Source of the DNA: Microtetraspora sp. NBRC 16547
GTDB taxonomy: Bacteria > Actinomycetota > Actinomycetes > Streptosporangiales > Streptosporangiaceae
DNA length: 64,000 nucleotides
Reading direction: 5' to 3'
Assembly (NCBI RefSeq): GCF_030268965.1
Contig: NZ_BSSE01000001.1
Coordinates: 507,796-571,795, forward strand
Below the pieces are notes generated by a model. That model saw only the letters and a program-made list of their open reading frames with translations. It was not told the origin of the DNA and ran no database searches. Positions 6,546 through 39,679 of this stretch are shown here, in pieces (positions within the stretch are counted from its first letter, which is position 1; each line of letters begins with the position of its first letter). Made by a program: the position numbers and the translations under genes.

Positions 6546-6604
6546 TTTCGCTTTCCACCTTCGAGGGCGCACCAAGACGTCTCACATTCCGGACCTGGGG
6601 CTAG

Positions 6605-7759
<1,155 letters not shown>

Positions 7760-7953: not shown

Positions 7954-8508
7954 GTGACTTCGACCTCGGGGGTTCTACGGGCACGGCAGCGCGGCCTGGG
8001 CTATGTCATGTTCGCCAGCAGATGGCTGCAGGTGCCCCTCTACCTCGGGCTGATCGTGGCCCAGGGCGTCTACGTCTGGCAGTTCATGGTCGAGCTGTGG
8101 CACCTGCTCACCGGTGACTTCGCCGCCAGCGGCATGAACGTCGAGCAGTCCGTGATGCTCAGCGTCCTCGGGCTCATCGACGTCGTGATGATCTCCAACC
8201 TGCTCATCATGGTGATCGTGGGCGGCTACGAGACCTTCGTGTCGCGGATCAACCTCGACGGCCACCCCGATGAGCCCGAGTGGCTGTCCCACGTGAACGC
8301 GAACGTGCTCAAGGTCAAGCTCGCCACCGCCATCATCGGCATCTCCTCCATCCACCTGCTGCAGACCTTCATCCGGGCCCGCGAAATGAGCACCGACACG
8401 ATGCTGTGGCAGACGGTGATCCACGTGGTGTTCGTCCTGTCCGCTATCGGACTGGCCCTCATCGACCGGATGCTGAACACGTCCTCCGGCGAGCACGCGC
8501 ACGACTGA
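7954..8508 (+). CDS. UPF0114 (YqhA-like) integral membrane protein
   Basis: 184 residues from GTG 7954 with AGGAG 5 nt upstream. Four hydrophobic segments are visible: WLQVPLYLGLIVAQGVYVWQF, the stretch around VMLSVLGLIDVVMISNLLIM, a segment with KLATAIIGISSIHLL and a last one with VIHVVFVLSAIGLALIDRM. The FASRWLQVPLYLGL start and DVVMISNLLIMVIVGGYE are typical of the UPF0114/YqhA family. Function is unknown; the family sits in the cytoplasmic membrane. It stands alone between serC and the rhomboid gene. Confidence 0.85.
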   Translation: MTSTSGVLRARQRGLGYVMFASRWLQVPLYLGLIVAQGVYVWQFMVELWHLLTGDFAASGMNVEQSVMLSVLGLIDVVMISNLLIMVIVGGYETFVSRINLDGHPDEPEWLSHVNANVLKVKLATAIIGISSIHLLQTFIRAREMSTDTMLWQTVIHVVFVLSAIGLALIDRMLNTSSGEHAHD

Positions 8509-28940: not shown

Positions 28941-28987
28941 ATCTGCCACAATGATCCGCGGTTGTCCCCCTTTATGTGGAGATCGTC

Positions 28988-29644
28988 ATGACGACGCCAG
29001 AGGTGCGTCCCGGGCTCACGCGTGAGCGTGTCAGTGCCTTCGCTGACGCCATCCTGGCGATCGCGATCACACTTCTCGCGCTGGAGCTGCCCCGGCCTGA
29101 GGCCGCGAACTTCCGGAATCTGAGCGGGTTCCTCGGGGACCACATAAGCACGTTCGTGGCGTTCGCCGTCGCTTTCTTGATGCTGTGGTCTGTCTGGCGG
29201 GTGCACCACTCCCTGTTCGACCAGCTCGACCGACTGTCACCGGCAGTGCTCGCATTGCATCTCCCGATGCTGCTCTCGGTGGTTCTCCTGCCGTACGCGA
29301 CATCAGTCTTCGGGCAGGCGAGCGCGCTGGCGGAAGACTCCCCGGGGGAGCATGCACTGGCGGTGGCGATGTTCGCCGCCACCGAGGCCGTTCTGCTGCT
29401 GTGCCAGGGAATCATGATCGTTCTGGTGCTCAGGCAGCGTCTATATCGACCGGACACCGACGTGGACCGCCTGGGTACCAACGCCTGGGTCTACCTGGGG
29501 ATCGGGATCTTCTGGGCCTTAACAGCCGCCATGAGCGCCTGGTCCGCCGAACTGGTCCCCTTCCTGTGGCTGGCGACCCCGCTCGTCGGCTCCGGCATAG
29601 CCAGGACCATCAGGATGCGGCGAACCCTCGCAGCACGTCCCTGA
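28988..29644 (+). CDS. TMEM175-family (DUF1211) potassium channel-like protein
   Basis: 218 residues from ATG 28988 (GGAGAT 7 nt upstream). The family signature of the first helix, RVSAFADAILAIAITLLALELPRP, is complete; the FAD variant of the FSD selectivity motif is present. About six membrane helices follow. Bacterial members form tetrameric K+-selective leak channels lacking the usual P-loop. No neighbouring partner; both sides are decayed sequence. Confidence 0.88.
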   Translation: MTTPEVRPGLTRERVSAFADAILAIAITLLALELPRPEAANFRNLSGFLGDHISTFVAFAVAFLMLWSVWRVHHSLFDQLDRLSPAVLALHLPMLLSVVLLPYATSVFGQASALAEDSPGEHALAVAMFAATEAVLLLCQGIMIVLVLRQRLYRPDTDVDRLGTNAWVYLGIGIFWALTAAMSAWSAELVPFLWLATPLVGSGIARTIRMRRTLAARP

Positions 29645-29689
29645 TTCCATCGACCCCGATTGCCCTCAATTGCCGACCGGCGCGCGTGC

Positions 29690-29889
29690 GGGCTGCCGTA
29701 GGCGACACCCGACACACCTGCGCCTCACTCCTGGCCGCGCTCGACGTGCACCCACGCGTGGCGATGCGCATCCCGAGCCACTCGCAGATCTCACTGACCA
29801 TGAACGTCTACACGCAGATCCCGTCGCGGGCCACTCGCAAGGCCCTCGATCGTCTAAGCCAGAGCCTCGACAGCCATTGTGATCAGTAG
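29690..29889 (+). pseudogene. tyrosine integrase C-terminal remnant
   Basis: A frame without a proper start encodes DTRHTCASLLAALDVHPRVA, IPSHSQISLTMNVYTQIPS and ATRKALDRLSQSL, recognisably the C-terminal catalytic part of a phage-type integrase. The usual LGHS is changed to IPSHS, and everything upstream of the second Arg motif is missing. A dead remnant of an older integration. Confidence 0.75.
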
Positions 29890-29967
29890 ACCTACAACGT
29901 CGACCTCTGGAGCTCGCTCCAGTGGGGGCCTGTCGTCATTCCCATGCTTTCTGCAATCCTGTGAGGG

Positions 29968-30210
29968 ATGTCCAGCCCACCGTGTCCCCACTGTTCCCGC
30001 AAAACCGTGCCGTTCCTGTTCGGCCTGCCTACTCCCGCCGCCATTAAGGCAGCCGAAGCGGGCGAGCTGCTCCTCGGCGGATGTGTCGTGTGGGAGGACG
30101 CCATCGAAGAGGGCTGGCAATGTCTCGGCTGCGGCCATCACTTCCAGGCAACAGACCGAGCCCTCTGGCTGAGCACCATCGAGAGCATCGTCTCCGGGCA
30201 CAGCGGATGA
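29968..30210 (+). CDS. small zinc-ribbon protein
   Basis: 80 residues from ATG 29968. Two Cys pairs, CPHC near the start and CLGCGHHF near residue 53, bracket a FLFGLPTPAAIKAAEAGELLLGGCVVWE segment. Similar short proteins of unknown function occur widely in actinobacteria. No enzymatic motif. The ribosome-binding site (GAGGG) abuts the start, which is unusual. Confidence 0.65.
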   Translation: MSSPPCPHCSRKTVPFLFGLPTPAAIKAAEAGELLLGGCVVWEDAIEEGWQCLGCGHHFQATDRALWLSTIESIVSGHSG

Positions 30211-30372
30211 TCGTTAGAGCGCATGACTCGCGCGCCCACCGGGCCGATCCCGACCACGGAACGATTGCCCTGTCGGACGTCGTCGGCGTCGTCATGTGAT
30301 TGATCCTCAGCGCGCCTCTTGAGCACGCCTTTAATGGAGCTGCCGCTGCGGTCCATGGTAGGTACTCTCGGC

Positions 30373-30921
30373 ATGGAGTTCCTCTGCTATCACCGCGATC
30401 GGCCTGACTCCGCCGCACTGCGCGACGAACTGCTGGAAGAGCACTGGTCCTACATGGACCGGTACGCGGCGGAGATGATCGCCCGTGGCCCGACCTTCGG
30501 CCGCTGCAGCGACACGGCCACAGGCAGCGTGCACATCGTCGACCTACCAGATCTCGCCACTGCGCGTGCGTTCGTCTTCGAAGAGCCCAACTACCAGGCC
30601 GGTGTATACCGGGACGTGATGTTGCGCCGATGGCGCAACGTGCTGGGGCGCACCATGTGGGATTTCCCTGGCGGCCGAGACGGCGGCAACCGGTATCTGG
30701 TGCTGGGCCTCGGCTCCGGGCAGGCTGCCGACCTTGTCCCGCCGCCCGACCGGGACGAGCTGATCGCGTATGGGCCGCTGCTGTCCGACAACGGCACCAC
30801 CTGGCTGGGTACGGCGCTGCTGGTCCGGGCGCCGGACCCGCATGCGGCACGCGCCGTCCTGACCCTGGACCGGTACGCCGACATCGAGGTCCACGATTGG
30901 GAGTTCGGCGGGCGGCGGTAA
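30373..30921 (+). CDS. YciI-like (YCII) dimeric alpha-beta barrel protein
   Basis: 182 residues from ATG 30373; an open frame continues upstream but TACTCT (30363-30368) four bases before the ATG suggests a leaderless start here. Two YCII-type units are visible: MEFLCYHRDRPDS..HWSYMDRYAAEMIARGPT..GSVHIVDLPDLATARAFVFEEPNYQAGVY and a second unit from about residue 105 (YLVLG..DRDELIAYGPLLSDNGTTWLGTALLV). Function of such proteins is mostly unknown. Confidence 0.75.
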   Translation: MEFLCYHRDRPDSAALRDELLEEHWSYMDRYAAEMIARGPTFGRCSDTATGSVHIVDLPDLATARAFVFEEPNYQAGVYRDVMLRRWRNVLGRTMWDFPGGRDGGNRYLVLGLGSGQAADLVPPPDRDELIAYGPLLSDNGTTWLGTALLVRAPDPHAARAVLTLDRYADIEVHDWEFGGRR

Positions 30922-31021
30922 TGAGCACTTGACCGTCGCCGAGGTGGGGCCAGTTCTCGCTCTTTGAAATCGCTGTGCCACTCCTCCCCTGCTCCCGCTA
31001 GCCGCCCATTTCCGGGACTGT

Positions 31022-31127
31022 CAGGCGGGTTCTGTCAAGGATGGCTTCGCTGTGTTCCATCAGCCGGTGACCTTCCGTCGTGCGCGGTTGTCCTACGTGC
31101 ACAGCCATCCTTGACAGGTTCCGCCTG
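31022..31127. repeat. 106-bp element with 25-bp inverted repeats
   Basis: Arms 31022-31046 and 31103-31127 match at about 22 of 25 positions (core CTGTCAAGGATGGCT). The 56-bp centre has no ORF. Likely a miniature element or the joined ends of a lost insertion sequence. Confidence 0.65.
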
Positions 31128-31259
31128 CCCCGGACATTCGGGCGGCGGGTGCAGGAAACCACGTACGGCGGGGGCGTGGCGCTGGGTCGGCGCGTTCGAT
31201 GGGTACGGCGGCGGCTTGTGCGACGGGCCAACCGCGCGCACCACCGCGCGAGTACGGCC

Positions 31260-31431
31260 CGTCTCCGAAGTCCTCGGGCATGCCAGCGTCGCGATCACCA
31301 AAGACGTCTACGGCCATCTCATGGAGGGCGACCGGCGGGCGGCGACAGAGGCCATTACCGGCGCTCTGCTGGGGCAACGGAAGCGGGCGGCTCCCAAGGT
31401 GGCCCTCAAAGACAGCGAAGAGACCGGATGA
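31260..31431 (+). pseudogene. C-terminal stub of a tyrosine integrase, just outside the left att repeat
   Basis: The frame VSEVLGHASVAITKDVYGHL, EGDRRAATEAITGALLGQ contains the LGHAS His motif and the catalytic Tyr (KDVYGHL). Nothing upstream of this resembles an integrase. It ends at TGA 31429-31431, 12 bp before the left 90-bp repeat, the same order seen for the intact integrase at the right repeat. This implies an older element inserted at the same tRNA. Confidence 0.75.
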
Positions 31432-31442
31432 CCCACACAATC

Positions 31443-31532
31443 ACAAGGCCCCTGACCGCGAAACCGCTGGCCAGGGGCCTTTCATGTGAGAGCCGCGTTG
31501 GGGAATCGAACCCCAGACCTTCTGTTTACAAG
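31443..31532. repeat. left att repeat (attL) with partial tRNA-Thr and integrase-type terminator
   Basis: The first 38 bp hold a hairpin (AAGGCCCCTG/CAGGGGCCTT). From 31498 a 35-bp block identical to the tRNA-Thr 3' half includes the T-arm. Only a 10-bp middle and one further base differ from the right copy. Confidence 0.85.
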
Positions 31533-31969
31533 GAGAATCGGCGATGTCCACAGGCGTCCACAGCTGGCGCAGAGCCCTGGTCAACGGCACCTCTGGGAAG
31601 GCACCCAGTCCACCCGCTTCCACGATCGTCCATGGCCGTTGTTAGCAACCGCGTTAGCAAGGTCGATCCCGTGACACCTTCGATGCGAACGCGGGAAAAG
31701 CGGTCGGTGCCGACTCAGCGGGTGCTGACTAGCACTCCCTCGTGCGGGTGTGATCTCGACTGCTGGCGCCCCAGACAGTCGGGTATCAGCAGGTTCGCTG
31801 ACTTTTCGCTGACTCGACTCGCCCCATGCTGATGCCTTGCATCAGTACCTGAGCTATCTCCGGGCACACCCGCGGGAGCTCGCCGACAGCAGCATCCCTC
31901 GCCTCCTGATCAGCGCTGATCCTGACAACAGACTGAGCAGATCCCCGTTCGAGGGCTTCGTGGGGCCTT
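31533..31969. other. left end of the integrated element, noncoding
   Basis: 437 bp with no protein-like frame. It contains paired GTTAGCAA sites (31641, 31653), an 11-bp-spaced direct repeat of TTCGCTGACT (31794, 31805) and a perfect CTGATGC-CTT-GCATCAG palindrome (31829-31845). These could be recombination or regulatory sites. Confidence 0.5.
31641..31660. repeat. paired GTTAGCAA sites, left arm
   Basis: GTTAGCAA at 31641-31648 and 31653-31660, 12 bp apart start to start. The same pair with the same spacing occurs at the right end (38509-38528). Candidate integrase arm-binding sites. Confidence 0.5.
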
Positions 31970-33500
31970 CTAGTACGACAGCAGTACTTCGAGATTGTTC
32001 ACGTTGAGTGATCTCGCGCATGCGAACGGCCGCCTCTAAGATCACGATCTTGTGAGAAACCAAGATCCCGAGACGGCCGTAGCGGCCATCGTAGAGCCCG
32101 AACTGCTGGAACGGAAGTTCACCGAGCTGACCAGCGCGATCGCGGGCGCATTCGGCCGGGTCGAGCCGCGCAAGGCAGCGACCGGCTACCTGCGTGGGCT
32201 GCTGTCGGAGATCCCCCGCAAAACCTGCTGGGACCTAAGTAAATACGCCGGGCACATGACCCCGGATGTGATGCAGCGACTGCTGTCGCGCGCTGTCTGG
32301 GACGAGGACACCGTCCGAGACGCGGTCCGCCGCTACGTGATCGGCCACCTGGCCAGCACTGATGCGGTGCTGGTTCTCGATGAGACCGGCCAGGAGAAGA
32401 AGGGGACCGCAACCTGCGGGGTGGGTCGCCAGTACACCGGCACCGCCGGCAAGGTCACCAACTGCATCGTCGCCGTCTATGCCACCTACGCCAGCCCGCT
32501 CGGCCACGCCCTGATCGACACCGAACTGTACGTGCAGCGCAAATACGTCGACCTGCCCGCGACCCGGGAGGCTATGGGCCTGCCCGCCGACTGGCGGTTC
32601 GCGACGAAACCGCAGCTCGCGCAGCGGATCGCGTCCCGCGTCTTGGCGGCGGGCGTCGAGGTTGCGTGGGCGGCGGGTGATGAGGTGTACGGTCGCGATC
32701 CCAAGCTGCGTGCCTTCCTCGAAGCACAGCGGATCGGGTACGTGCTGGCGGTCGGGGTGGACTTCCCCGTCCCCACTGCGGCCAGCTCGCACCGCGCCGA
32801 CCATCTGGCCGCGCTCGTCCCCGCCCGCGCCTGGGAGCGGCGCTCGTGCGGCGCGGGATCCAAGGGGCCGCGCGTCTATGACTGGGCGATGGTCGCCACC
32901 GTCGGCCCGCGGCATGTGCTACTGATCCGGCGTTCGGTCAGCACCCCTTCTGAGCTGGCGTTCTTCTACTGCCATGTGCCCGAGGGCCGCGCGTTGACGC
33001 TACCTGTCCTGGTCCGGGTCGCGGGCGTCAGGTGGGCGGTAGAGGAAGATTTCCAGCAGTCCAAGGGGCAGGTCGGGCTCGATCACACCCAGGTCCGCCG
33101 GTACCGGTCGTGGCGGCGGCATGTCATCTTGGCGATGGCCGCACTCGCGATCCTGGCTGTCGTCGTCGCCGTCGAGCGCCGCCGTCATCCCGCCCCCGTC
33201 GTGCCGTGTACCAGCCAGGACGCTCCGCCCGACGACTACGGGCTCATCGCGCTGACGGTGCCCGAGATCCGCCGCCTGCTCACCGTGTTCTCCCACGTCG
33301 GCACCGTAGTGACACCACGTGTCGCCGCCCTGCGGCGTGAGTTCGAGCTCCGCTGGAGCACTTGGCGGCGCCGCCATCAGGCCCGCGCCCGCTGGCACCG
33401 CTACCGCAGACGCCTGGCCCTCACATAATCCCAGCTCACGGCATCAGCCGACGATCGTCGAGGCGGAGGGCCAGATCACAAAGTACTGCTGTCGTACTAG
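31970..33500 (+). mobile_element. complete IS701-family insertion sequence
   Basis: 1,531 bp including perfect 20-bp inverted ends CTAGTACGACAGCAGTACTT (31970-31989) and its complement (33481-33500). CTAG at each end is the probable 4-bp target duplication. It encodes one intact transposase. The flanks rejoin to GGGGCCTTCTAGGCCCC, a palindrome, so the element landed in a hairpin sequence. Confidence 0.88.
32052..33428 (+). CDS. IS701-family DDE transposase
   Basis: 458 residues from GTG 32052. The IS701/DDE_5 signatures are present: LVLDETGQEKKG with the first Asp, the hallmark RQYTGTAGKVTNCIVAVY, AAGDEVYG with the second Asp, and WAVEEDFQQSKGQVGLDH with the Glu. No frameshift or stop interrupts it, so it may be active. 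It is the only ORF of the insertion sequence. Confidence 0.93.
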   Translation: MRNQDPETAVAAIVEPELLERKFTELTSAIAGAFGRVEPRKAATGYLRGLLSEIPRKTCWDLSKYAGHMTPDVMQRLLSRAVWDEDTVRDAVRRYVIGHLASTDAVLVLDETGQEKKGTATCGVGRQYTGTAGKVTNCIVAVYATYASPLGHALIDTELYVQRKYVDLPATREAMGLPADWRFATKPQLAQRIASRVLAAGVEVAWAAGDEVYGRDPKLRAFLEAQRIGYVLAVGVDFPVPTAASSHRADHLAALVPARAWERRSCGAGSKGPRVYDWAMVATVGPRHVLLIRRSVSTPSELAFFYCHVPEGRALTLPVLVRVAGVRWAVEEDFQQSKGQVGLDHTQVRRYRSWRRHVILAMAALAILAVVVAVERRRHPAPVVPCTSQDAPPDDYGLIALTVPEIRRLLTVFSHVGTVVTPRVAALRREFELRWSTWRRRHQARARWHRYRRRLALT

Positions 33501-33519
33501 GCCCCGTGTAAAACCACCT

Positions 33520-33548
33520 CGCCCCAGCACCTCTAGGAGGAAGGGGCG
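33520..33548. terminator. nested hairpin between the IS and the NACHT gene
   Basis: CGCCCC (33520-33525) pairs with GGGGCG (33543-33548) around an inner CCTC/GAGG stem. A smaller hairpin CTCTC/GAGAG lies at 33581-33594. These may block read-through from the IS into the NACHT gene. Confidence 0.5.
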
Positions 33549-33630
33549 GGGCAGATGTTGACGGAAAAGCCGACAATGTCCTCTCTGTGGAGAGATGATG
33601 CCTCCTGTACGGCAGACGGAGGGCAGCCCG

Positions 33631-36600
33631 ATGGCAATTGTGGAAGCTGCCGCAACTGCGGCGGGCAAGGCAGTGGCGACGAAGGCGGTACGTGAGTGGC
33701 TCCTCGCCCGGGCGTCTGCAAAAGATCTTGGGGCGGATCTTAAAGACCTGATCAGAAATAGCTATCGCGACCGCCTCGCTGTACGCAAGTTCGAAAACCA
33801 AATTGAGGGTGTAGCGCTGGCTATAGAGGCGCGCTTAAGTGCGCTTCTGGAACAGGAGTACCGAGGCCTTGCTGACAACGACCGTGCCGCCGTCCTGCAT
33901 GAGGTAGTAGCCACTCTGCAGGCTGCCGACTTATCTGACGCCGCGCTATTCAAGGCGGACGCGGACTCGGCTCGAGTAGCTGAGCAACTTATGGCTACCC
34001 TACCCTCACCTAAGCTTAGCGACGCCGAACAACAGCTATACATGGTACTACTGGCCGAGTGTGTGGATTGCTTGGTTGGGATGATGCGGGAACTTCCACA
34101 GTACCTGCCCCGAGCGGCCACCGAGACCTTAGCCAGGCTTACCGGATTGGCTGAGGGCGTGGAGCGGCTACTGGCAAGGATGCCAGTACGGACTCTCGAT
34201 GCACCCGAGGGCAGCCAAAACGACGAGGCCTTCGAGCGGCAATATCTCAGCTTCGTAAGCCGCACGATGGATGAGGTGGAATTGTTCGGCGTGCGTGTAG
34301 AGAGCTTTAGGCCGCGCACCTCACTGAGCGTCGCCTACATCAGCCTTAGCGTTAGCACCGAGGAAAGCAAGGCGCGAACGATGGCCGAGCGACTATCGAT
34401 CGCTTCGCTCACAGACCCAGTAGCGCCGGAGCCTGGCATGCTCCGCATCGAGTCGGCGCTCGGCCGCTCACGCCTGACGCTCGTGCGCGGTGATGCTGGG
34501 TCGGGCAAAAGTACGCTGCTTCGCTGGTTGGCGGTAACGGCTGCGTTTAAAGGTTTTTCGGGCGACCTGACGGAGTGGAACGGATGCGTGCCGCTGATAA
34601 TTAAGCTCCGCAGTCACTCCGATGGCCGCTTCCCGGCTCCTCCCGACTTTCTGAACGACGTAGCCCAGGAGCTGGCAGGACGCATGCCGCGCGGATGGGT
34701 GGAGCGAGTGCTTGATGCAGGTCGCGGCCTACTGCTGGTGGATGGAGTGGACGAGTTAGTAGTACGGCATCGACAAGCCGTACGCCAATGGCTGACTCGG
34801 CTACTCGCGGCATATCCGTCGATGAGGGTCATCGTGACATCGAGGCCAGCGGCGGCCGACGCCAAATGGCTAGCAGAGGAGGGCTTCACTGCCGCCCTAC
34901 TTGAGCCCATGACTTCGGAGGATCTACGAGAGTTGGTTCGGCAGTGGCATATTGCTATGCGCGACTGCCCCAGCCTGCCTTGTGCAGCTGACGAACTGCC
35001 CAGCTACGAGGGGGCGCTACTGGCTCGCCTCGAGAGCAGCGGACACCTGCGGACGTTAGCCTCGACACCTTTGCTTGCAGCGATGCTCTGTGCGCTAAAC
35101 CTCGACCGACGAACCCAGTTGCCCCGCAGCCGTATGGGCCTATACGACGCGGTTCTGGCGTTGCTGCTAGAGCGGCGAGACGCCGAGCGGGGAATTCGAG
35201 ATGATGTGATACTCGATCCCGAACAGAAAATCTGGATATTGAGAGATCTAGCGTGGCGGCTAGTCTCAATGGGTCGTTCGGAGCTGTCTCGGGCCACCGC
35301 TCTAAAGCGGATCGAGCAGAGGCTATCCTCTATGACACGTATGCCGTATACGGCGGAGATGGTGCTGGAACACTTGGTACGACGGAGCGGCGCATTGCGG
35401 GAGCCGGTACCAGGTCGAATTGATTTCGCACATCGAACGGTGCAGGAGTATCTGGCAGCTGAGCAGCTCGTCGAAGACGAGGACATGGAGGTAGTGGTCG
35501 AGCGGGCACATTTAGACCAATGGAGGGAGGTAGTAGTGATGGTGGCCGGGCACGCAACCGGAAGGCTACGGCGGGAGTTGCTGCAAGGATTGCTTAATCG
35601 GGCAGACTCGGGGGACCGACATGCACGAAAGCTCCGGATGCTGGTCGCTGCTTGCCTGGAGACCATTCAAGAGATCCCGGTCGAATTGAGGGGCAGCATC
35701 GAGACATGCCTCGCGACGGTCATACCACCTCGGAATGAGGACGAGGCGAGGATGCTGGCAGTGGTAGGCGAAGAAGTCCTACACCGGCTACCCGACAGCC
35801 TGTCGGGACTCACCGCCAAACAGGCTGGCATGACCGTGCGCGTAGCCTGGCTAATCAACGGGGCCGGCGCCATCGAGAAGTTAGCCGCCTACGCCAGCGA
35901 TTCACGTTCAAAGGTACAGGATCAACTTATCGCCGGATGGCTCTATTTCGACACAGAAACATACGCACGGGACGTTTTGGTCAAGGCGCCACTGAATACC
36001 CGTGTCTTTATCGATAACCACCGGCTACTACCCAGCCTTCGACATCTGAACAATTTGACCTACCTGTCCATATATACCGATAACGAGATCACGGACATTA
36101 GCTTTGCGCGAAACCTTTCCCGGCTGCTGTGGTTAGATTTAAATGGTCTCGACACGAATAATCTAGACCCGGTGGGGCAGCTTCGTAACCTGCGTCGGCT
36201 ATGGATTAGCATGAGTACCGAGCGACATGTCAGTATGGCCACGCTTGAAAACCTCGGCCACCTACAGGATCTCTGGTTGTGGAATGTCGAGCAAAGCGAC
36301 CTCACATTCCTCGACCGGCTCCCTCGACTGAAAGGCCTTGGGCTTGAGCTCCCGCGGGAGGATCACGATCTTTGGTACGAGCCACTATCTCGGCAGAACG
36401 AGCTGGTACGCCTGTCGCTAGGCACTTCGGGGCAGAAGATTAATCCGCTGACGTTCGCCCAGATGCGCCAACTAGAATCCCTTGCATTCTTTGGAACATG
36501 CGACACTAGCGGTATCCTAAACGTCCTCGCCGAAATCTCCGCTCCACTGACCTACCTAAGCGTCAGCAGCCCTAGACTCCAGGATCTGCAGACCTTACCA

Positions 36601-36963
36601 AGACTGCCGGTGGCCGATCTGCAGATAGACTCCTGTAGAACCTTCGAGGGTCTAGGCGATAATCCGAATCTGAAATCTCTCAAACTCGCTAATCTGCTAA
36701 TGAGTGACCTCGCACCACTGGCCAAGCTATCTAACCTTGAGAGCCTCGTTCTCAACTCGGCTCGCCAGGTCGCTGACCTTGCTCCGCTCGCGCACTGCCC
36801 AAATCTCAAATACCTTGAATTGCGCGATGTGGCGGTCAACGTCGACTTGGCCCCCCTTGCCAAAACAGGGCTCCATATCACGCTTGGTCAGACTCAGTCA
36901 GTTCGAAACGCGCATCTGCTGGATGACACAACGAAAATCGGTCGTGAGCGCATGGACTTCTAA
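33631..36963 (+). CDS. NACHT NTPase with C-terminal leucine-rich repeats (bacterial NLR-like protein)
   Basis: 1,110 residues from ATG 33631 (GGAGGG 7 nt upstream; an in-frame ATG at 33595 lacks one). Residues 1-200 are an all-helical domain of the NACHT N-terminal type (MAIVEAAATAAGKAVATKAV). The NACHT core has Walker A GDAGSGKST (286-294), Walker B LLLVDGVDEL (367-376) and sensor VIVTSRP; the helical lid ends with FAHRTVQEYLAAEQL (about 598-612). From about 800 to the end are roughly ten leucine-rich repeats. Bacterial NACHT proteins of this layout protect against phage; that role is inferred here. Lower GC than all neighbours shows transfer. Confidence 0.92.
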   Translation: MAIVEAAATAAGKAVATKAVREWLLARASAKDLGADLKDLIRNSYRDRLAVRKFENQIEGVALAIEARLSALLEQEYRGLADNDRAAVLHEVVATLQAADLSDAALFKADADSARVAEQLMATLPSPKLSDAEQQLYMVLLAECVDCLVGMMRELPQYLPRAATETLARLTGLAEGVERLLARMPVRTLDAPEGSQNDEAFERQYLSFVSRTMDEVELFGVRVESFRPRTSLSVAYISLSVSTEESKARTMAERLSIASLTDPVAPEPGMLRIESALGRSRLTLVRGDAGSGKSTLLRWLAVTAAFKGFSGDLTEWNGCVPLIIKLRSHSDGRFPAPPDFLNDVAQELAGRMPRGWVERVLDAGRGLLLVDGVDELVVRHRQAVRQWLTRLLAAYPSMRVIVTSRPAAADAKWLAEEGFTAALLEPMTSEDLRELVRQWHIAMRDCPSLPCAADELPSYEGALLARLESSGHLRTLASTPLLAAMLCALNLDRRTQLPRSRMGLYDAVLALLLERRDAERGIRDDVILDPEQKIWILRDLAWRLVSMGRSELSRATALKRIEQRLSSMTRMPYTAEMVLEHLVRRSGALREPVPGRIDFAHRTVQEYLAAEQLVEDEDMEVVVERAHLDQWREVVVMVAGHATGRLRRELLQGLLNRADSGDRHARKLRMLVAACLETIQEIPVELRGSIETCLATVIPPRNEDEARMLAVVGEEVLHRLPDSLSGLTAKQAGMTVRVAWLINGAGAIEKLAAYASDSRSKVQDQLIAGWLYFDTETYARDVLVKAPLNTRVFIDNHRLLPSLRHLNNLTYLSIYTDNEITDISFARNLSRLLWLDLNGLDTNNLDPVGQLRNLRRLWISMSTERHVSMATLENLGHLQDLWLWNVEQSDLTFLDRLPRLKGLGLELPREDHDLWYEPLSRQNELVRLSLGTSGQKINPLTFAQMRQLESLAFFGTCDTSGILNVLAEISAPLTYLSVSSPRLQDLQTLPRLPVADLQIDSCRTFEGLGDNPNLKSLKLANLLMSDLAPLAKLSNLESLVLNSARQVADLAPLAHCPNLKYLELRDVAVNVDLAPLAKTGLHITLGQTQSVRNAHLLDDTTKIGRERMDF

Positions 36964-37286
36964 GGATTCATGACGCATATCCGTATGTAGCGCCCACACC
37001 CTGATCTTCCCGTTTGCCGTCGTCCCACCGCGGAGCGGCAGCGGGCCGGCGACGGAGGCGCAAGCCCGGCCTCGCGTGTACGTCAACCCGGTCGTGGTTC
37101 CTCGGCCATTGAATGCCATCAGTCACGGCCAGGCTTGAGCCGTAGGAGCCGATCTGCTGGGCTTGCCTGGGGCGATGGCGCTCGGGACGATCAGGGCTCC
37201 CCGCCGCCAACTGACCTGGCTCTTGATCGGCGATCATCCCGGAGCCGGAGTGCCCCCGCCGGAGGCACAATGGACCTCGGCCCGCT
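36964..37286. other. gap between NACHT gene and integrase
   Basis: 323 bp. The excisionase or regulator usually found upstream of such integrases is not recognisable. A short frame ending at 37312 (MALGTIRAPRRQLTWLLIGD..) overlaps the integrase start and may be a remnant. Confidence 0.45.
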
Positions 37287-38501
37287 ATGACGCGCTCGCG
37301 TGGTCGCGGTGACTGGCGTCGTGTCCGTCCTGGTGGTTGCGTCTCGCGGCTGTCATGCGTCTGCCTGTACGGGAGCGGCTGGCATCCGCGCGTCAAGGAC
37401 CCGGAGACCGGCGAGAGCAAGCCGAAATGGGTGAGCGGCTTCGCCACTGAAGATGGCGCCAAGGCGGCCCGTGACGAGGCGCGGGTCAAGGCCCGGCGCG
37501 GCGAATACATCGACCGGAACGCGATCACAGTCGCGGAATACCTCGCCGAGTGGATCGAGGGCCACGCCGTGGAGATCAAGCCGAAGACGCTCGCCGGATA
37601 TCGCGTGATGATCCGCCTCTACATCGAGCCGAACATTGGCAGGGTACGGCTTCAGGCTGTACGCCCGGCCACCCTCACGAAGCTCTACCGGGATCTGCTG
37701 ACGGCCGGCCGTAGGAACGGCAAGGGCCTCGCCCCGAACACGGTCAAGAACGTGCACACCGTGCTCCGCAAGGCGCTCAGTGACGCTGTTCTCGTTGACG
37801 AGATCCTGCCCAGCAACCCCGCCGAACGCGCCAAGCTTCCGCGCGCCCAGGTCACTGAACCGGGCACCGTGTGGACTCCGGCACAGCTCCGCGGATTCCT
37901 CACCGCCGCGAAGACTCACCGGCTGTTCGCGTTCTTCCACCTCGCCGCTTACACGGGCGCCCGTCGTGGCGAGCTGTGCAACCTGCGGTGGGCTGATGTC
38001 GACCTGGACACGCCCCAGATCCGCGTGATGGGCTCCTCGGCCGTGGTCGAGGGCGAGAGGATCGAGGGCACCACCAAGGGCGGGCGGTCCCGCGCCGTCA
38101 GCCTGGACGCCGAGACCGTCGAAGTCCTCCGCGAGCATCGCAGGCGCCAGAAGGCTGACCGGCTCCGCCTCGGGGAGTCGTGGAGGGGCGCGGACGACTA
38201 CGTGTTCACCACCGGATGGGGAGAGCCGATCTATCCCGACACGGTCAGCTCTCTGATGCCCACCCTGATCAAGGCGTACAACGACACGAAGCCCAGCAAG
38301 CCGCTCCCCCACGCCCGGCTACACGACCTACGGCACATCCATGCGACCACACTTCTGCTCGCTGGTGTCCCCGTTCACGTCGTCGCGGCCCGCCTGGGCC
38401 ACTCCGACCCGGCGATCACTCTCCGGGTCTACGCACACGTGATCAACGAGCAAATGGCGAGCGCGGCCGACGTCTTCGCCAACGCGATCAAGGCCGCGTA
38501 A
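37287..38501 (+). CDS. tyrosine-type site-specific integrase
   Basis: 404 residues from ATG 37287. An N-terminal arm-binding part (VKDPETGESKPKWVSGFATEDGAK, RRGEYIDRNAITVAEYLAEW), a core-binding domain and a complete catalytic domain: Arg226 (TGARRGEL), a Lys in TTKGGRSRAV, His346-x-x-Arg349 (HDLRH), His372 (LGHSDP) and Tyr382 (RVYAHV). It ends 52 bp before the right att repeat and points at the tRNA, as in pSAM2-like actinomycete elements. The first 35 residues are atypical and the true start is uncertain. Confidence 0.9.
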   Translation: MTRSRGRGDWRRVRPGGCVSRLSCVCLYGSGWHPRVKDPETGESKPKWVSGFATEDGAKAARDEARVKARRGEYIDRNAITVAEYLAEWIEGHAVEIKPKTLAGYRVMIRLYIEPNIGRVRLQAVRPATLTKLYRDLLTAGRRNGKGLAPNTVKNVHTVLRKALSDAVLVDEILPSNPAERAKLPRAQVTEPGTVWTPAQLRGFLTAAKTHRLFAFFHLAAYTGARRGELCNLRWADVDLDTPQIRVMGSSAVVEGERIEGTTKGGRSRAVSLDAETVEVLREHRRRQKADRLRLGESWRGADDYVFTTGWGEPIYPDTVSSLMPTLIKAYNDTKPSKPLPHARLHDLRHIHATTLLLAGVPVHVVAARLGHSDPAITLRVYAHVINEQMASAADVFANAIKAA

Positions 38502-38508
38502 GCCCGCT

Positions 38509-38528
38509 GTTAGCAAGGGTGTTAGCAA
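38509..38528. repeat. paired GTTAGCAA sites, right arm
   Basis: GTTAGCAA at 38509-38516 and 38521-38528, just past the integrase stop, with the same 12-bp spacing as at the left end of the element. Confidence 0.5.
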
Positions 38529-38552
38529 GATCCCAGATTTGTCCGGACAAAG

Positions 38553-38642
38553 ACAAGGCCCCTGACCGCGAAACCGCTGGCCAGGGGCCTTACACATCCG
38601 AGCCGCCTTGGGGAATCGAACCCCAGACCTTCTGTTTACAAG
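38553..38642. repeat. right att repeat (attR), overlapping tRNA-Thr
   Basis: Matches 31443-31532. The first part is the integrase terminator hairpin (AAGGCCCCTG/CAGGGGCCTT); the last 35 bp (38608-38642) are the 3' half of the tRNA gene to the anticodon loop. Recombination probably occurs within those 35 bp. Confidence 0.85.
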
Positions 38643-38673
38643 ACAGATGCTCTGCCGATTGAGCTAAGGCGGC
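38601..38673 (-). tRNA. tRNA-Thr (anticodon TGT)
   Basis: 73 nt on the minus strand: acceptor GCCGCCT pairs with AGGCGGC, D-stem GCTC/GAGC, anticodon stem TCTGT/ACAGA with loop CTTGTAA (anticodon TGT), T-stem TGGGG/CCCCA with loop TTCGATT, discriminator T. CCA is not encoded. It is the intact copy at the integration site of the 7.1-kb element. Confidence 0.93.
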
Positions 38674-38722
38674 GTACCGCCCACGAGTTTAGTGGGCCGG
38701 AGGCGGTACCGTCACCGAGGAT

Positions 38723-39679
38723 TCACCGGCGACGCTGACGGGCGATCTCGTAGAGGGCGATGCCGGCGGCGACGCCCGCGTTGAGCGACTCGGCCGCGGC
38801 GTTCATGGGGATGCGAACGACCTGGTCACAGGACTCGCGGACCAGGCGGGACAGCCCCTTGCCCTCGGAGCCGACGACCACGACGAGCGGCTCGGCCGCC
38901 AGCTCGACATCGCCGACATCGATGGACGCGCCGCCGTCGAGGCCGATAACGAACAGCCCGCTCTCGCGGTACGCCTGCAACGTCTGGGTGAGGTTGGCGG
39001 CACGGGCGACGGGCAGGTTGGCCAGCGCGCCCGCCGACGTCTTCCAGGCCCCGGCCGTGACGCCCGCCGAACGACGGGACGGGACGAGCAGGCCGTGGGC
39101 GCCGAACGCGGTGGCCGACCTGGCGATGGCCCCGAGGTTGCGCGGGTCGGTCACGCCGTCGAGGGCGACGATCAGCGGCACCTCGGCGGCATCCTGTGCC
39201 CGCTCCACGAGCTCGGACGGGTGAGCGTACTCGTACGCCGGCAGCTGAAGCCCGATCCCCTGGTGAACGCCACCGTCGGTCAGCCGGTCGAGCTTGTCGC
39301 GCGAGACCTCCAGCAGCGCGATGCCCCGATCAGCGGCGATCTTGATGGCCTCGCGGACGCGGTCGTCGCTGTCGATGCGCTGCGCGACGTAGAGGGCGTT
39401 CGCGGGGACACCGGCGCGGAGCGCCTCAAGGACCGGGTTACGGCCGCCGATGACCTCCGGCGCGTCCTCGCGGCGCGCCTTGGACTGCGCGCGAGCGGGC
39501 CGCGCCACGCCGGCGGCCTCGCGTTCGATCCGCTCGGTGCGCGCCTTGTCCTTGAACCAGTGGCGCATGTGGGCCGGGGGCGTCGCGCCCCTGCCCGCGA
39601 GCGAACTGCGGCCCTTGCCGCCGGTTCCCCTGGTGGACCCCTGCTTCCGTGAGGGCTTCCCTGAAGCCTTTCCCGCCAT
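38723..39679 (-). CDS. rlmB: 23S rRNA (guanosine-2'-O-)-methyltransferase RlmB
   Basis: 318 residues. A basic, low-complexity N-terminus (first 75 residues, common in actinobacteria), a substrate-binding L30e-like domain (IGGRNPVLEALRAG) and a SPOUT domain with the trefoil-knot motifs ALDGVTDPRNLGAIARSA, VVGSEGKGLS and IPMNAAAESLNAGVAAGI. It methylates the ribose of G2251 (E. coli numbering). It follows cysS by 22 bp, the standard actinobacterial order. Confidence 0.92.
   Translation of the reverse strand: MAGKASGKPSRKQGSTRGTGGKGRSSLAGRGATPPAHMRHWFKDKARTERIEREAAGVARPARAQSKARREDAPEVIGGRNPVLEALRAGVPANALYVAQRIDSDDRVREAIKIAADRGIALLEVSRDKLDRLTDGGVHQGIGLQLPAYEYAHPSELVERAQDAAEVPLIVALDGVTDPRNLGAIARSATAFGAHGLLVPSRRSAGVTAGAWKTSAGALANLPVARAANLTQTLQAYRESGLFVIGLDGGASIDVGDVELAAEPLVVVVGSEGKGLSRLVRESCDQVVRIPMNAAAESLNAGVAAGIALYEIARQRRR

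Follow-up and report, generated by a model that had tools for sequence, protein, structure and literature searches.

The 64,000-nucleotide window of Microtetraspora sp. NBRC 16547 analyzed here (the whole stretch, to which all coordinates refer) holds an element integrated at the 3' end of a tRNA-Thr(TGT) gene, spanning positions 31437-38642, and in it one large gene for a protein with NNH1, NACHT and leucine-rich repeat (LRR) parts, the layout of the animal NOD-like receptors (NLRs). The features of the element, in order, were:

31437-31532, no strand: left att repeat (tRNA-Thr 3' part plus a terminator-like hairpin), 92% identical to the right copy over 96 nt.
31641-31660, plus strand: left arm, with a pair of GTTAGCAA repeats at a 12-nt distance, putatively arm sites for the integrase (8-mer count).
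31671-31827, no strand: first half of a segment derived from an actinomycete integrative conjugative element (AICE), inverted relative to the AICE at locus L196 (31687-31827 corresponds to L196 16508-16368, inverted, 74%).
31970-33500, plus strand: IS701-family insertion sequence, transposase at 32052-33428 (NF033540, 1.7e-110), CTAG at both ends.
33595-36963, plus strand: NNH1-NACHT-LRR gene, the cargo, likely start 33631 (open reading frame (ORF), Pfam, homologue starts, model).
36999-37392, no strand: second half of the inverted AICE-derived segment, abutting the integrase (36999-37386 corresponds to L196 16300-15910, inverted, 83%).
37287-38501, plus strand: ORF of the tyrosine integrase, whose homology to AICE integrases begins only at about 37389.
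38509-38528, plus strand: right arm, with a second pair of GTTAGCAA repeats at a 12-nt distance (8-mer count).
38547-38642, no strand: right att repeat (direct-repeat search).
38600-38673, minus strand: tRNA-Thr(TGT), the integration target (ARAGORN).

An earlier note on this DNA, made from the letters alone, had described direct repeats of 90 bp at tRNA-Thr; the repeat was found again, with a length of 96 nt and its right copy overlapping the tRNA gene, the sole one that ARAGORN reported in the window. The 22-nt core of the repeat occurred in just these two copies in 64 kb when up to 3 mismatches were allowed (0 expected). The GTTAGCAA 8-mer was present in 4 copies in the window, both strands counted, two per arm (starts 31641/31653 and 38509/38521), and at least one copy lay near the ends of 10 of the 10 related elements with both att copies (right side in 9, left side in 4). 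The two flanks, when joined (31231-31532 plus 38643-38900, 560 nt), matched the congener G061 over 461 nt without gaps (90% identity), spanning the junction. This congener is the informative case because the match took in 107 nt left of the repeat, and it carries the empty site; in G096 and G118 the match began at the repeat, and these genomes therefore say less. Site-specific integration, as previously proposed, was thus upheld by the att repeats, the tRNA-Thr gene and the empty site. The gene was present in 1 of the 4 genomes of the genus examined, the window's own: there was no match in G061 and G118 at E 1e-10, and just a partial NACHT match (32% identity) in G096. The integrase (at E 1e-60) and the full NACHT-LRR gene were not found in the 3 congeners, and the four genomes had just short patches in common between about 16.2 kb of the window and the tRNA.

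The NACHT ORF encodes 1122 amino acids at full length without stops, and homologue starts indicated M13 (33631), not 33595, as its likely start. Walker A (GDAGSGKST, residue 299), Walker B (LLLVDGVDEL, 379) and the FAHRTVQEYLAA motif (611) were present as had been read before, and Pfam matched NNH1 (3e-42), NACHT (3.3e-23) and LRR_4 (3e-08). Membership of the NACHT family followed from PF05729 (82.8 bits vs. a cut-off of 26.7) and both Walker motifs, and that of the C-terminal LRRs from PF12799 above its cut-off, internalin-type LRR matches in the PDB and the LRR strands of the model. The AlphaFold2 model (54 sequences; mean predicted local distance difference test score (pLDDT) 87.6, predicted TM-score 0.74) comprised a helical N-terminus, a linker, NACHT, winged-helix/helical parts (our naming) and an LRR fan with about 13 LRR-type strands by our count, in place of the ten or so repeats counted previously. 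NNH1 folded alone was all-helical (pLDDT 81). Foldseek against the PDB placed NLRC4, NOD2 and NLRP3 in the first ten matches (best E 3.6e-18, about 930-1130 columns, so that the alignments cover most of the protein); the structure prediction suggested in the earlier note as a check on its NLR reading is consistent with that reading, and the predicted fold is NLR-like in its three parts. The window protein retains the residues invariant across the 54 sequences. Its mean identity to 53 homologues was 60% in NACHT and 26% in the LRR part, and the ratio of nonsynonymous to synonymous substitution rates (dN/dS), taken from three pairs with dS of 1.5-2.0, near saturation, was 0.12-0.13 before the LRR part vs. 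0.35-0.43 within it. Sequence motifs and model together establish the predicted anatomy (LRR, NACHT and NNH1 architecture) as that of a bacterial NLR.

The integrase search across 150 genomes of the family gave 37 matches (its own included) at E 1e-60, and the best 20 of the 36 others, 64-74% identical, were taken for comparison of their loci. The integrase end adjoined a tRNA in 18 of these 20 loci (tRNA-Thr in 9, tRNA-Arg(ACG) in 9), and a second att copy lay within the fetched stretch in 10; for L198, the att search used the wrong tRNA. Rep-like genes, named by reading, were found upstream of the integrase in 17 of the 18 loci with gene lists, L198 being the exception. These lists, like those of the hot-spot genes and neighbors described below, were made with our own codon-usage gene caller, which may miss genes. 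L204, the one example scanned with Pfam, encoded RepSA (1.1e-165), FtsK/SpoIIIE (2e-23) and an HTH_17 excisionase-like protein. Sequence similarity places the window integrase among those of RepSA-type AICEs at tRNA-Thr or tRNA-Arg.

A tyrosine integrase with att sites in the 3' end of a tRNA gene, as in an AICE, is present, its start being lost. The core-binding and catalytic domains are kept (Pfam), and the earlier statement that the integrase is intact did not hold. DNA homology to the 20 relatives started abruptly, at 37389 in 15 of them and between 37383 and 37418 in the remaining 5; at the protein level, the alignments with 18 relatives started at 37317-37404, some extending slightly further through gaps; the conserved run LRDGVMKRGxTWx(Y/F)VI, just upstream in 8 of the 8 relatives shown, was missing from the window integrase; and 8 alignments of the upstream 90 nt were at chance level (z -1.06 to 1.49). 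By these alignments the conserved N-terminal stretch is lost or replaced upstream of about 37389. When the relatives' core proteins were compared with positions 29001-38700, only the integrase was matched: no relative of their excisionases (Xis), of their Rep initiators (RepAM and Prim-Pol were not searched) or of their FtsK/TraB-type transfer proteins (Tra) was found there. The element is for this reason read as an AICE remnant, not as a compact intact carrier; the word mobile, used of it before, was not supported, and the element has probably lost the ability to move by itself. One full RepSA gene (PF20199) and five fragments were found in the same genome, all outside the window, so AICE decay looks usual there; AICE decay and accretion at one tRNA site are described in PMC9513070.

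The inverted AICE-derived segment is split. The piece at 31671-31827 corresponds to the adjoining part of the L196 segment matched by 36999-37392; the 5171 bases that separate the two halves (31828-36998) contain the NACHT gene and the IS701 copy, at a point where the L196 segment has 67 bases that the window element lacks. Since the segment is split around 31828-36998, the NACHT gene sits within a rearranged AICE fragment. The inverted repeats of the IS701 copy (31970-31995/33475-33500) enclose its transposase; the gene had been described as the sole cargo, and it is indeed the only large non-mobility gene of the element, the IS701 transposase being there as well. At L196 itself (G012:C2), two AICEs lie side by side in opposite orientation, including the segment whose inverted halves occur in the window element.

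Eight of the related loci supplied ten putative cargo ORFs, which were scanned. L195 carried a type ISP restriction enzyme (PADLOC, 2245 bits), L201 an HsdR-like protein (95 bits), L204 and L207 P-loop/TPR proteins with sub-threshold STAND matches, and L210 a weak AAA match; in the other five ORFs (L198, three of L200, L206) the scan found nothing clearly defensive. Cargo status is based on position in L198, L201 and L207, where no left end of the element could be located. In three congeners, the hot spot from the tRNA to the conserved left side had 28 predicted genes, of which 19 were scanned, with three PADLOC matches at E 0.001. The CARF match (21 bits) was rejected as regulator overlap, and the two mad1 matches (36 and 42 bits) were read as regulator overlap in MerR-like proteins. 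A lack of related defense genes at this tRNA, a case the earlier note had considered, was accordingly seen within the genus among the genes scanned, and in other genera such genes did occur on elements with the related integrase at tRNA-Thr or tRNA-Arg (the type ISP and HsdR-like proteins and the two P-loop/TPR proteins).

The tRNA-Thr gene has probably taken elements more than once and would thus be an accretion site. Two further remnants lie to its left:

29703-29889, plus strand: older remnant of an integrase C-terminus (positions 29703-29874 shared with congener G096).
31330-31436, plus strand: remnant left of attL, integrase C-terminus-like by reading, adjoining tRNA-Thr in G061.

The older remnant had a weak Pfam Phage_integrase match below the cut-off (E 0.0056) and none to the integrase set of this analysis. 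The remnant at 31330-31436 had no match in Pfam or in that set; its positions 31330-31434, left of attL in the window, are immediate neighbors of the tRNA in G061. The older remnant has beside it, at 28976-29644, a gene for a TMEM175-like potassium channel (PF06736, 4.8e-21). Outside the window, contig C24 of the same genome (about 108341-112166; L037, L048, L052) is perhaps another accretion site: a further sequence there resembles the tRNA-Thr at 84%, and two att-like copies, each of 31 nt, lie at distances of 2.7 and 3.7 kb from it.

Some match to the NACHT-LRR protein at E 1e-10 was found in 60 of the 150 family genomes, many to the NACHT part only. The homologue set consisted of the best 80 of 173 loci from the genome collection, all with actinobacterial names. 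At E 1e-100, the genus g38 (read as Actinomadura) had one match each in 33 of 60 genomes, and a Streptomyces member used as query found matches in 24 of 61 (at least 55% identity in 5, the query's own included). Among the neighbors of these best 80 loci (573 genes) no gene was common to more than 10, so no obligate partner shows. Within groups, one neighbor was common to 10 of 19 loci in Actinomadura, a run of five to 8 of 12 in Streptomyces, and four to 4 of 6 in Micromonosporaceae. Homologues in stable loci without integrases, which the earlier note had also considered, were therefore partly what was seen: sites were shared within groups and the seeds used detected no integrase in 91 of 97 loci, with an att-bounded copy in G050 on the other side.

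In the eight Streptomyces loci (L142, L132, L143, L144, L148, L152, L156, L161) the homologue follows a roadblock/DUF742/GTPase-type operon after 80-154 bp and is itself followed by a carboxylase-type gene (names by reading); this neighborhood suggests a possible link to G-protein-like signaling. In the Micromonosporaceae loci L120, L130, L141 and L151 it lies within an aromatic amino acid (aro) gene cluster, also named by reading. The most widespread neighbor across genera was an XRE-type regulator family, at varying distance in 9 of the 80 loci (L096, L108, L111, L116, L121, L129, L139, L145, L154) from several genera; a small DUF397-like gene was also present in 4 of the 80 (both named by reading).

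A seed search found an integrase near the homologue in 6 of 97 loci and Rep or Tra in 2 of 97, in a survey that counted some genomes twice, took flanks of up to 10 kb and used seeds that may miss distant integrases. The one clear case was the extra copy in G050 (L077, 46% identical), flanked by tRNA-Pro and, 36.6 kb from this tRNA, by the nearest att copy; its element also has integrase, HTH_17 and FtsK genes, and another copy (38-39% identity) was found in all three genomes examined of that genus. In L100, an integrase lies 3 kb from the homologue. L076 (G107) was rejected as a second mobile case: its att-bounded stretch (copy at 6554-6612) does not reach the NACHT gene, which lies at 8322. 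So were L065, L067 and L088, which have an integrase nearby and yet neighbors in common with their kin. Phages (two Listeria phage records, LRR part only, 815-1090) and plasmids (14 records, all under 60% identity and none covering 80% of the query) were discarded as carriers. For the most part the tree followed families, with some transfers, for example that of Lentzea, placed inside Actinomadura, and the window gene grouped with those of Nonomuraea zeae and Microtetraspora (support 95/84 and 99/97). This Lentzea pudingi copy (L105), which branches inside the Actinomadura clade and has a GC content 13 points lower than its flank, is likely a transfer.

The low GC content reported for the gene was confirmed: 0.58 vs. 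0.69 in the rest of the window, 11 points lower. Homologues were host-like in this respect (difference -0.011 on average for 80; a shortfall of more than 3 points in 15 of 80), and a larger deficit was found only in L105. GC at third codon positions (GC3) was 0.63, and the gene, counted at 33631-36960, had 10 TTA codons vs. a median of 1 in the 80 homologues, matched or exceeded by L105 (10) and L118 (14). A low-GC donor was unsupported as the source of this AT-rich codon usage, the nearest relatives, Nonomuraea zeae and Microtetraspora, being GC-rich (GC3 of 0.96 and 0.88).

We favor, with modest confidence, the reading of a bacterial NLR, likely anti-phage, stranded on an integrase-only, decayed AICE remnant at a tRNA hot spot. 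A rearranged AICE piece is interrupted by the 5.2-kb stretch holding the IS701 copy and the NNH1-NACHT-LRR gene, and the gene would act as a STAND switch without partners: a ligand, most likely a phage product, would be bound by the fast-evolving LRR fan, NACHT would then exchange nucleotide and oligomerize, and the helical N-termini (NNH1), brought together, would give a growth-arrest or death output limiting phage spread. We infer immune function, ligand and effector by analogy, and an anti-phage role is on that basis probable; sensing is given to the LRR part and signaling to NNH1 because of the characterized bNACHT proteins described in PMC12169576. The element could be carried in cis by another, related AICE that integrates at this tRNA. 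Several observations weigh against this reading. TM-scores to animal NLRs were low (0.20-0.43 in the first 22 Foldseek rows), which the pose of the domains may explain; PDB sequence searches matched the LRR part only, among the matches listed; NNH1 alone had no PDB match (best E 0.70), and no effector activity was recognized in it. PADLOC models, AVAST/Avs and other systems included, gave 0 families at E 0.001 for the protein, and the NCBIfam antiphage model HyoA scored 18.4 bits vs. a cut-off of 1200. To these are added the 19 hot-spot genes scanned in congeners, among which no defense gene was convincing, the end of the IS701 copy about 130 bp upstream of the likely NACHT start, and a promoter scan of 31400-38700 that found no sigma-70-like promoter, though such scans tell little in this phylum. 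Stable chromosomal sites within groups are also expected of housekeeping or regulatory genes, and the XRE neighbor could hint at toxin-antitoxin or regulatory company.

In an unlikely alternative, the protein would serve mycelial actinomycetes as a switch in regulation or development, or as a receptor for allorecognition, and not against phages, and would be hitch-hiking on the element; this would fit the Streptomyces operon and aro-cluster neighborhoods, the single match in 33 of 60 g38 genomes and the mostly family-wise tree, but the LRR part changes about three times faster than the rest, presence is patchy, G050 has its extra copy on an att-bounded element, and the characterized bacterial NACHT proteins are antiphage (PMC12169576). 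The proximity of the IS701 copy, the GC3 and TTA codons of the gene and the pseudogenization marks of many AICE cargo genes (PMC9513070) would rather suit a silent, decaying passenger, useful elsewhere and unexpressed here since IS701 and the rearrangement would have cut off its promoter; we consider this doubtful, given the full-length ORF without stops, the retained invariant residues and the low dN/dS before the LRR part, though this ratio largely reflects the time before capture. The reading first proposed, of a compact single-gene immune carrier that is still mobile, is very improbable: one large non-mobility gene only between the att sites, paired GTTAGCAA repeats kept in both arms and the conserved catalytic integrase domain speak for it, and the replaced integrase N-terminus, the missing Xis, Rep and Tra relatives and the failure to find integrase and full gene in the 3 congeners speak against it. 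Compared with these, the reading of an NLR stranded on a decayed AICE remnant remains our preferred one. A wider and rather doubtful speculation is that NNH1-NACHT-LRR proteins form a core NLR lineage that multicellular actinomycetes retain as a built-in receptor at fixed chromosomal sites specific to each group (next to a G-protein-type operon in Streptomyces), from which AICEs would repeatedly pick up copies with diverged LRRs that guard the colony, or the AICEs themselves, against phages or rival elements; if true, the core lineage together with the AICE copies would parallel, in bacteria, NLR repertoires made up of core and mobile parts.

The family provides full-length, well-modelled examples of the NLR layout in high-GC actinomycetes, and its slow switch and fast LRR sensor make ligand swapping and escape-mutant mapping practical. 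The locus shows an AICE decaying while its cargo gene stays full-length, which matters for counts of "mobile" defense genes. Among the papers listed from the open subset of the literature, none was found on an NNH1-NACHT-LRR gene on an AICE, and nothing was found on the ligand of this family. The primary paper on bacterial NACHT-LRR proteins is reportedly Kibby et al. 2023. NACHT-LRR proteins, a NACHT on a Frankia AICE and AICE decay are already published, and the window gene is a further member of a family found across related bacteria.

According to PMC12169576, bacteria encode NACHT modules with LRRs, "bona fide bacterial NLRs", and the bNACHT proteins characterized so far give protection from phages, with the sensor at the C-terminus, NACHT as the switch and the effector at the N-terminus. 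Like the bacterial NACHT-LRR proteins, the window gene has NACHT and C-terminal LRRs in one ORF and an NLR-like predicted fold; unlike them, its N-terminus is an NNH1 without a recognized nuclease or other enzyme. A "Nacht domain - NTPase" is listed among Frankia AICE genes in the Figure 7 legend of PMC3218068, and the window resembles this case in having a NACHT cargo on an AICE, neither the architecture of the Frankia protein nor its AICE being given there. The copy in G050, of the same family, is likewise a homologue between att copies of a tRNA element, which is larger than the window element (the nearest att copy being about 36.6 kb off) and differs in tRNA and integrase. Compared with AICEs with RepSA and FtsK, as described in PMC3218068 and PMC9513070, the window element has no detected rep, tra or xis, has lost the start of its integrase and has a piece inverted, whereas the related integrase, the kind of tRNA target, the arm repeats and the cargo on the attL side are common to both.

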